A DNA stretch of 5,219 nucleotides from Candidatus Poseidoniaceae archaeon (GTDB taxonomy: Archaea; Thermoplasmatota; Poseidoniia; Poseidoniales; Poseidoniaceae), in NCBI GenBank assembly GCA_013330925.1, contig DUHJ01000186.1, forward strand, positions 1-5,219. The letters run 5' to 3'. A program made the position numbers and the translations under genes. Of the stretch, positions 1,332 through 4,300 are shown piece by piece. Numbering within the stretch: the stretch's first letter is position 1; every line of letters starts with the position of its first letter. Under the pieces are notes generated by a model. It was not told where the DNA came from, ran no database searches, and was given only the letters and a program-made list of their open reading frames with translations.

Positions 1332-4300
1332 GTCGAAAGAGCGTGCTAATCCCGAAGCGAATCGCATCCATCCGCTTCAGCCTGATGGACCCTGCCGAGA
1401 TCCGCAAGATGTCGGCCGTTGAGGTCAAGACCCCGGACACCTACAAGGACGACGGTCACGCCTACACTCAGGGTCTCATGGACCCGCATATGGGTGTCAT
1501 CGAGCCCGGCATGATTTGCCCCACGGACAACTGCAAGTACGACGAAAGCCCGGGTCACTTCGGGCACATCGCGCTTGAACTCCCTGTCATCCACATCGGG
1601 TTCGTGAACCTGATCAAGACCGCGCTGAAGGCCACCTGCAACTCCTGCCACCGCATCCTGCTGCACGACGCCGAGGGAACGCACCCCGCGAACCCCGAAC
1701 TGAGCGAGCAGGATTACTACCGCCACCGTGTGCACGACATCATCACCAAGCACGGCGTCGGTTCGACCGAATTTGCGAAGATCATCAAGGACATCGAGAA
1801 GGTGACCTCTGGTGCCAAGCGCAAGACCTGCATGCACTGCGGAAAGCCCCAAGGAAAGATCATCCTCGAGAAGCCTACGAACTTCAAGGAGAAGATCGGC
1901 ACACCTGGCAGCGGCAAGGAAACCGAGCGCAAGCTCAACGCTCGCGACGTCCGCGAGTGGCTCGCGGCCGTGCCCGACGACGACCTGATCTTCATTGGGA
2001 TGCACAAGAAAAACCGCCCCGAGTGGGTGGTGCTCAAGGTGCTCCCTGTGCCTCCCATCACCGTCCGCCCCTCCATCACCTTGGACAGCGGCGACCGCTC
2101 CGAAGACGACCTGACGCACAAGCTCGTTGACGTGCTTCGAATCAACCAGCGTCTGCGTGAAAACCGTGACTCCGGAGCACCTCAGCTCATCGTTGAGGAC
2201 CTGTGGGAACTGCTTCAGTACCACTGCACGACGTACTTCGACAACCAAACCTCCGGCATTCCGCCAGCACGTCACCGCTCTGGCCGCACCCTCAAGACGC
2301 TCACGCAGCGCCTCAAGGGCAAGGAAGGTCGCTTCCGTTCCAACCTCTCCGGAAAGCGTGTCAACTTCTGTGCCCGCTCCGTGATTTCCCCCGACCCCTT
2401 CTTGGGCGTCAACGAAGTCGGTGTGCCAACGCGCATCGCCAAGGAACTCACCGTTCCCATCCGCGTGACCACGCGCAACCGTGAGGACATGCGACAGATG
2501 ATTTTGCGCGGTCCAGACGTCCACCCTGGTGTCAACTACATCATTCGCGGTGACGGTCGTCGTGTTCGCATCAACGAGCGCAGCCGCTTGATCAACGCCG
2601 GATTCCGTTGCTTCAACCCGGAGTGCGATTCTGAGCGCACCCTGCGACCGGACCTCGACGCGGTCATGCCCGCCCCCAACTTCCTGCCCGGCTTGGTCAT
2701 CAAGTCCCTCATCATGCGCACGCAGAGCGGTGAAGAACTCACCCAGTACAGCGTCGACGACGAGGCCACCTTGGCCAACCTCCGTGGTGAGGAACGCGAC
2801 GGCACCCCGCTCGCGGACGACGACCCTCGTGGCATCCTCTACCAGCGCTGGAAGTGGGAACTCAGTCAAGCTGATTTGCCTGACCCCGAGCCCTTCCCCG
2901 AGCACCTCAACGTCTTGTGTCCGCACTGCGGTTCCCCGACCGACGAGTGGGGCGACCACACCCGTGTGGACGACCGCCTTTCGACCGTGGACTGGAGCGG
3001 CAACCCAAAGCCCGGTATCACCGTTGAGCGTCACCTGATCGATGGCGACGTTGCCATCTTCAACCGGCAGCCATCGCTGCACCGGATGTCGATGATGGTG
3101 CACGAAGTGCGCGTCATGGAAGGCAAAACCTTCCGGTTCAACCTCGCGGTGTGCACCCCATACAACGCGGACTTCGACGGCGACGAGATGAACCTCCACG
3201 TCATCCAATCTGAGGAAGCCCGTGCGGAAGCCAAGATCCTGATGCGTGTCCAGGAACACATCCTGACGCCCCGCTACGGCGGTGCGGTCATCGGTGGCAT
3301 CCACGACCACATCTCGGGCGCATACCTGTTGACCCGTGGCGGTGAGAATGGCCTCATCCTCAAGCGCAATGCGCTTGAGATGCTCGGCTACATCAACTAC
3401 CGTGGCGACCTGCCTGAAACCGTTGAGAATGACGCTGGCGAAGCCTGCTTCCGTGGCGAGGACCTGATGTCCCTCATCATCCCCGACAACATCCACATGC
3501 GATTCCGCAGCCGATCATTGGACGACGTGAAGGTCCGAAATGGACAGATCAGCGGTACCCTCGACAAGCGCGCCATCGGTGCGGAAGACGGTCGTCTGCT
3601 CGACGCCATCATCCAAACCAACGGCCCAAGCCGCGGTGCGGAGTTCCTTGACCAGTTCACCCGACTGACCATCGGAGCCTGCACGTCGCTCGGTTTCACC
3701 ACCGGCATCGACGATGAGGACCTCTCCGAGGAAGCCATCGCGGGCATCGAGAAGGCCAACGACGAAGCACGCATCGCCGTCCGTTCCGAGCTGGAGAAGT
3801 TTGGAGAAGACGGACAAGGCTACGAAACCCGCCCCGGTCGAACCCCTGTTGAAACCCTCGAGGAGAACATCATGATCATCCTCGACCAAGGCAAGCAGGC
3901 AGCCGGTGACGTGGCGAAGGACGAGTTGAACCGATCCGGTTCCACCAACGCCGCGGTCAACATGGCCATCTCCGGAGCCCGTGGTTCCATGGACAACCTG
4001 ACGATGATGGCCGGTTCCATCGGCCAAGCAAAGGTTCGTGGCCGTCGCCTCGAGCGTGGCTACGAGGACCGTGTGCTCCCCCACTTCAAGCGCGGCGACA
4101 AGGGTGGCCGCCAGAAGGGATTCATCGCGTCCTCCTTCAAGCGTGGTCTTCAGCCCACGGAGTTCTTCATGCTCTCCGTGTCCGGCCGCGAGTCCCTGGT
4201 CGACACCGCGGTTCGTACCGCGAAGTCCGGGTACATGCAGCGCCGTTTGATCAACGCCATGGACGACCTCAAGGTGTACAATGACGACATGCTGTCCGTC

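Follow-up and report, generated by a model that had tools for sequence, protein, structure and literature searches.

An order-specific insertion with two cysteine pairs beside the dock of RNA polymerase subunit A′ in Poseidoniales

Archaeal RNA polymerase (RNAP) serves as a simple model of Pol II, and the Poseidoniales (Marine Group II) are an abundant group of marine plankton. Here, we describe a Poseidoniales-specific insert in RNAP subunit A′, encoded in a 5,219-nucleotide stretch from a Candidatus Poseidoniaceae archaeon (GenBank assembly GCA_013330925.1, contig DUHJ01000186.1, positions 1 to 5,219; hereafter the window). The closest described systems are the insertion domains of bacterial RNAPs (BEAN/HABAS and the cyanobacterial Si3), which are likewise in-frame, lineage-restricted extra domains of a large subunit. 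According to passages of PMC10802570, Si3 contacts sigma and stabilizes the promoter complex. A role of this kind is proposed for the Poseidoniales insert, although Si3 resides in the trigger loop and the insert lies beside the dock. The archaeal domains treated in sections of the BEAN/HABAS paper (PMC11515920) are common to all archaea and not specific to one order.

Human Pol I provides a second parallel. Its 'dock II' is described in excerpts of PMC9438803 as a clade-specific, high-mobility-group (HMG)-like insertion of RPA1 and a proposed factor-binding platform. Dock II and the insert share the trait of a clade-specific domain built into the largest subunit. However, dock II is a truncated HMG box-like element of the foot domain (residues 1060-1155), whereas the insert is located next to the dock hairpin and before the catalytic NADFDGD motif, and we thus do not assign it to dock II. 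In the openly licensed PMC literature, which was the body searched, no listed title or abstract opening and no retrieved passage describes the insertion, and the terms Poseidoni, Thermoplasmat, insertion and dock are all absent from the main text of PMC13257274, a 2026 study of how archaeal RNAP evolved.

Position and distribution of the insert

The window contains the RNAP operon of a member of the Poseidoniales, with subunits B, A′ and A″ in this order. Its A′ is 99% and 98% identical to the relatives at loci L017 and L001, respectively, and falls among the Poseidoniaceae rows of the core tree described below. Between residues 400 and 575, the window A′ has 176 residues, compared with 43-46 (mostly 43) in all 36 more distant archaeal loci (L045-L080, most labelled Thermoplasmatota or Euryarchaeota). 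The insert is found in none of these 36 loci and in all 44 of the closest loci (L001-L044, called Poseidoniales by their record names and single clade). The same span comprises 175-184 residues in the closest loci where it is complete, equivalent to a net insertion of 132-141 residues; L041 starts inside the insert and its span is incomplete.

The insertion site is bounded by the dock hairpin (residues 401-415) on one side and VERHLIDGD (from residue 566) on the other. The alignments to Pfam RNA_pol_Rpb1_2 and to NCBIfam TIGR02390 and PRK08566 are all broken at this site, and those to the structurally known A′ proteins of Thermococcus, Pyrococcus and Sulfolobus end at query residue 415-422 and restart at 560-563. 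The insert takes the place of some 15 native residues, such as those around KNAETVAEGLEI in L065. Similarity to the family is lost from about residue 416-419 and regained from about residue 563, giving a novel region of about 2582-3013. The initial annotation had placed the segment at 2591..3007 (residues 422-560); the insert itself stands, and its boundaries are a little wider. The reading of the segment as an in-frame A′ insertion with CX4C and CX2C pairs between dock and active site is borne out by a net gain of 133 residues, and the positions given for the four cysteines (428, 433, 531 and 534) are exact. As an in-frame segment inside a large RNAP subunit that is absent from relatives, the insert has the properties of a lineage-specific insertion domain. 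The features of A′ are as follows.

1328..4528, forward strand: rpo1N/rpoA1, RNAP subunit A′, 1066 amino acids, host of the insert; TIGR02390 equivalog, above cut-off
2528..2572, forward strand: dock hairpin GVNYIIRGDGRRVRI, residues 401-415, the last conserved element ahead of the insert; tip (410/411) relaxed in Poseidoniales
2582..3013, forward strand: Poseidoniales-specific insert, a predicted domain, about residues 419-562, net +133 residues relative to relatives
2609..2626, forward strand: first cysteine pair, C428-X4-C433 (CFNPEC), in 45/45 aligned rows and 120/120 listed proteins
2672..2692, forward strand: APNFLPG motif, residues 449-455, near-invariant core of the insert (each position in 43/45 to 45/45 rows)
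2918..2929, forward strand: second cysteine pair, C531-X2-C534 (CPHC), in 45/45 rows, with a weak zinc-ribbon profile match
3164..3184, forward strand: catalytic NADFDGD motif, residues 613-619, intact and downstream of the insert

A phylum-wide survey matched the insert profile in 118 of 389 genomes, and the A′ family is present in at least 366 of the 389. In the order that holds the genomes of L001 and L021 (Ca. Thalassarchaeum betae), the insert occurs in 278 of 318 genomes. Thirty-seven of the 40 insert-negative genomes of this order were re-searched, the other three being outside that set, and no intact A′ without the insert was found among the 37: 33 have no match at all to this part of A′, and in four A′ is cut by a contig end. 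The insert domain is thus present in every intact Poseidoniales A′ examined. One record of the same order, L016, is labelled Deltaproteobacteria bacterium AH-558-G13 and has a Poseidoniales-type A′ with the insert; the label looks wrong or the assembly mixed.

The order of Marine Group III (MGIII; L062) belongs to the same class, and all 17 of its 21 genomes with A′ give one unsplit match and no insert. Among other Thermoplasmatota, the site was opened in 11 genomes whose Pfam match is split or weak and which do not match the insert, and no insertion was seen there, with the site cut off by a contig edge in two (G074 and G322). Three of the 11 have a longer loop before GVNY, and the others show frameshifts, masked stretches, contig edges or loops of the usual kind; G035 (two contigs) was left out of this inspection, as were G193 and G293, where a strong match is accompanied by extra ones. 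The longer loop, found in L085, L086 and L089, adds roughly 20-50 residues just before GVNY, a different insertion point near the dock. One phylum was thus surveyed deeply, and coverage beyond Thermoplasmatota consists of the solved A′ structures and the 120 proteins listed for an outgroup query, the A′ of Ca. Mnemosynella biddleae (L077). None of these 120 proteins, the best of 8000 scored, has the insert (a 35-residue span versus 168 in the window); they include Archaeoglobus, Geoglobus, Methanocella, Methanoperedens and Methanothrix. The notion of a lineage-specific domain therefore holds, with no comparable segment in the other archaeal A′ compared (0/36 loci, 0/120 listed proteins).

When did the insert arise? 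The core tree is a quick, midpoint-rooted tree of 79 rows built from the C-terminal core with the insert excluded, and the program warns of long branches. On this tree, the insert requires one change, on a branch with an SH-aLRT support of 100, and MGIII is not the sister of the insert clade. Because all of the outgroups compared are without the insert, we infer that the change was a gain, which was presumably single, vertically inherited and located on the Poseidoniales stem.

Conservation, candidate zinc site and predicted fold

The four cysteines of the insert are kept in 45/45 aligned rows, and the CX4C...CPHC pattern is found in 120/120 listed proteins (the best of 7720). In addition to the cysteines, APNFLPG, W508, CPHCGSP and DDRLxTxDxxGxPxPG are invariant or nearly so. 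The ratio of nonsynonymous to synonymous substitution rates (dN/dS) of the insert is 0.018-0.078 in nine of 11 close pairs, the other two pairs being dS-saturated. In the same nine pairs, the ratio is 0.003-0.026 for the N-terminal core and 0.011-0.065 for the C-terminal core, and the insert exceeds the former in eight pairs and the latter in six. Purifying selection thus acts on the insert, usually less strongly than on the core, and the low dN/dS marks the insert as a real coding feature. It is also acidic, with a mean net charge of -14.8 (range -21 to -11, n=42 rows) versus about 0 per 100 residues in the remaining A′.

The cysteine pairs are positioned near both ends of the insert, 97 residues apart. 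They represent two conserved CXXC-like pairs of a putative C4 site, with CX4C as the first pair, and judging from their conservation the four cysteines appear to behave as a constrained metal site. Zinc binding is suggested by the CX4C and CX2C pairs themselves, which likely clasp one zinc ion and thereby join the ends of the insert, and the initial annotation's 'zinc knuckle closing off a subdomain' would fit this arrangement. Profile matches to zinc ribbons are weak. At E <= 10, 37 of 43 members match Pfam Zn_ribbon_3 (best E 0.0035) and eight of 43 match PF08271, the TFIIB ribbon (best E 0.043). In the window's copy, such matches fall on the second pair and reach no curated zinc-ribbon cut-off (best 13.3 bits versus cut-offs of 25-30.8), nor does any other family attain its cut-off there. 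The insert thus resembles TFIIB/TFB and other C4 zinc ribbons in its two cysteine pairs and weak profile matches but differs from them in its CX4C first pair and in the 97 residues, predicted to fold, between the pairs.

Structure prediction with AlphaFold2 suggests that the insert is a folded alpha/beta domain. In the context of A′, the predicted local distance difference test (pLDDT) score is 77-90 per ten-residue block of the insert, and the insert alone gives a pLDDT of 80.3 and a predicted template modelling (pTM) score of 0.71. Disorder, which the initial annotation had named as evidence against a domain, is thus not what the model predicts. In the A′ model (pTM 0.42), the catalytic core is unreliable and was left unused; placement in the whole enzyme comes from homology. 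Foldseek matched no PDB chain to the insert at E <= 0.001; with regard to a BEAN or HABAS fold, bacterial beta′ chains appear at E of about 2-3 with template modelling scores of 0.11-0.14. No relative of the insert outside A′, and none as a stand-alone protein, was found in the searches made.

Possible partners and competing explanations

What could this domain do at the dock? Most likely, the insert is a zinc-clasped protein-binding domain that was fixed on the Poseidoniales stem and remodels either TFB docking or the mouth of the RNA exit. Its location is expected at the TFB-ribbon/RNA-exit face since the flanking hairpin is homologous to the dock. This agrees with the dock adjacency pointed out at the outset, given that the insert directly follows the dock hairpin and that the TFB zinc ribbon binds the RNAP dock, as noted in portions of PMC7289017. 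A net charge of about -15 argues for a protein partner rather than RNA, and direct RNA binding by the insert was set aside owing to this acidity. We tentatively favour, at somewhat less than even chances, a specific mechanism in which the two cysteine pairs would clasp one zinc ion and the insert would fold as a domain, this domain would sit on the dock rim as a built-in protein-docking platform, and the platform would contact the N-terminal part of TFB during initiation. Such a platform may affect TFB docking or RNA handling, as initially suggested. TFB would be the best single guess for a partner, and a role at the exit mouth with Spt5, the stalk or FttA would be nearly as good.

TFB is put forward on account of the known ribbon-dock contact, the relaxed dock tip by the insert and the N-terminal changes of TFB in the same clade. 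At the dock tip, G410 and R411 are each found in 34 of 36 other loci but in only 15 and 22 of 44 Poseidoniales loci, respectively. Three of nine hairpin columns conserved elsewhere are relaxed in the clade, compared with 17 of 372 in the rest (p = 0.0085, for a stretch chosen post hoc), and none of the nine conserved columns after the insert is relaxed. TFB was compared in 26 of 30 loci, leaving out L127, which duplicates the region of L109, and the second TFB types found in Poseidoniales (L130-L132). The ribbon profile scores lower in Poseidoniales (57.8-63.9 bits for the main TFB, n=10) than in the 17 best matches from 11 other Thermoplasmatota genomes, including MGIII (69.5-81.3 bits). Four TFB positions that are invariant in 16/16 others are changed in 10/10 Poseidoniales (Y to E, P to A, A to V and D to S). 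The N-terminal changes of TFB as a whole are suggestive and do not reach significance.

Several observations weigh against TFB as the partner. Fixed TFB changes number 7/60 in the N-terminal part versus 4/110 in the core (p = 0.054, not significant) and 3/30 in the ribbon alone (p = 0.17), so that co-evolution of the insert with the TFB ribbon, which was tested in this way, is not significant. The stem branch is long (0.76 on the core tree) and, outside the insert, 25 of 381 conserved A′ columns also switched to another fixed residue, so correlated change constitutes weak evidence. Furthermore, four of 14 conserved columns in the clamp zinc site ZBD1 are relaxed (p = 0.004, again for a stretch chosen post hoc), a cluster that would implicate the RNA-exit mouth no less than TFB.

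The insert may instead work mainly after initiation, shaping the mouth of the exit channel as an elongation surface that binds the Spt5 KOW domain, the Rpo4/7 stalk, the terminator nuclease FttA or a trailing ribosome. We regard this explanation as possible but improbable. The insert is expected on that face of the enzyme. In the T. kodakarensis complex, FttA contacts ZBD1 of A′ (excerpts of PMC11616081), where the second relaxed cluster of Poseidoniales lies; it is this contact that makes a role at the exit mouth nearly as attractive as TFB docking. The Rpo7 stalk domain was detected in 21 of 24 genomes, including eight of 10 Poseidoniales, one of those below the curated cut-off. However, the acidic charge speaks against direct RNA binding, and the ZBD1 change splits the clade (22 versus 21 of 43 rows) in which the insert is universal, so the two do not share an origin.

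In 22 of 43 Poseidoniales rows, ZBD1 itself (window 1517-1567, A′ residues 64-80) is altered to CPTDNC...DESPGH, with a CX4C pair and Ser in place of the third Cys. The other 21 read CETCGN...CPSH, and most of the other loci printed read CKTCG...CPGH. L019 and L022 are placed with Thalassarchaeum by the C-terminal core, yet have a Poseidoniaceae-type ZBD1, and their identity to the window is 82% in the N-terminal core and 72% in the C-terminal core, which hints at recombination within A′.

A structural brace, which would stabilize the dock, neighbouring subunits or assembly with no dedicated partner, is a doubtful alternative. The replacement of the native ~15-residue loop is consistent with it, as are the concentration of the strongest conservation at structural-looking positions (Cys, Gly, Pro and Trp) and a dN/dS mostly above that of the core, as a peripheral brace might show. 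However, every other archaeal A′ compared manages without the insert, and the acidic composition suggests an exposed interface.

A further possibility, which we consider very improbable, is that the insert substitutes for TFE as a built-in module of winged-helix/zinc-like type on the RNAP of a TFE-less lineage. The insert bears a weak fold resemblance to TFE/TFIIE-alpha (winged helix plus zinc ribbon), itself a small zinc-containing transcription module, which stands second in the Foldseek list and is its only VIA row, at a noise-level score. However, TFE has another known binding site on RNAP, and no TFE sequence match occurs among the best 25 of 35 profile matches to the insert. TIGR00373 detected TFE in 0/24 genomes across Poseidoniales, MGIII and other Thermoplasmatota, while all four archaeal controls matched, one of them above the curated cut-off. 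Parts of PMC7289017 and PMC4495717 are consistent with a missing TFE in the phylum. PF02002 gave weak matches in four of 21 genomes, none of which belongs to Poseidoniales or MGIII. Because the insert-free Thermoplasmatota are also without TFE detectable by TIGR00373, its absence is not distinctive for Poseidoniales, and TFE loss as the cause of the insert was rejected.

Finally, a selfish or accidental insertion (a mini-intein, a mobile element remnant or an assembly artefact) would account for an in-frame insertion in a conserved gene, but this origin is hardly credible for a segment of net 133 residues that is order-wide rather than sporadic in independent assemblies, follows the core tree, has a low dN/dS and matches no intein family among the best 25 of 35 profile matches; two intein-bearing A′ proteins of other archaea (P0231 and P0260), by comparison, carry PF14890.

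Surrounding features and implications

The second TFB types mentioned above comprise a divergent TFB in Poseidoniales genomes (L131 and L132; frames of 342-350 amino acids) and, in one Poseidoniales genome, a 200-amino-acid frame with a TFB-type zinc ribbon (L130). The neighbours of A′ in the operon are as follows.

3..1331, forward strand: rpo2, subunit B, 3′ part (5′ end outside the window)
4528..5217, forward strand: rpo1C, subunit A″, 5′ part (3′ end outside the window)

In those Poseidoniales loci that extend into it, A″ starts (window 4528-4800) with a conserved stretch whose sequence is MVVKSATKKKLxDL... or closely similar, and the first ~60 residues may form a helix-hairpin-helix. In many other Thermoplasmatota, A″ carries a comparably long but different extension at this end, and the A″ of the MGIII-type loci L062 and L071 has 442 residues from the first Met to GEPGTQM, versus 187 in the window. 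The C-terminal tail of A′ (window 4415-4525, residues 1030-1066) is strongly acidic; tblastn matches of most Thalassarchaeum-like loci end at about residue 1030, and the tail may be limited to Poseidoniaceae.

A bolder version of the docking role, which we hold to be unlikely, is that the insert is a permanently fused general transcription factor. In that case, a new zinc-clasped fold at the TFB dock would have taken over a share of initiation, either TFB anchoring or promoter opening, in a TFE-less lineage, and it would be the first order-wide, archaea-only insertion domain at a factor-docking site of a multisubunit RNAP.

The dock hairpin is conserved in the other archaea compared, and the Poseidoniales have rebuilt this site with a predicted domain that matches no solved structure searched. 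At the sequence level, the insert also seems to mark the order cleanly. It would provide archaea with an equivalent of bacterial insertions such as Si3 and raises the testable question of whether a built-in domain may replace or modify a general transcription factor.
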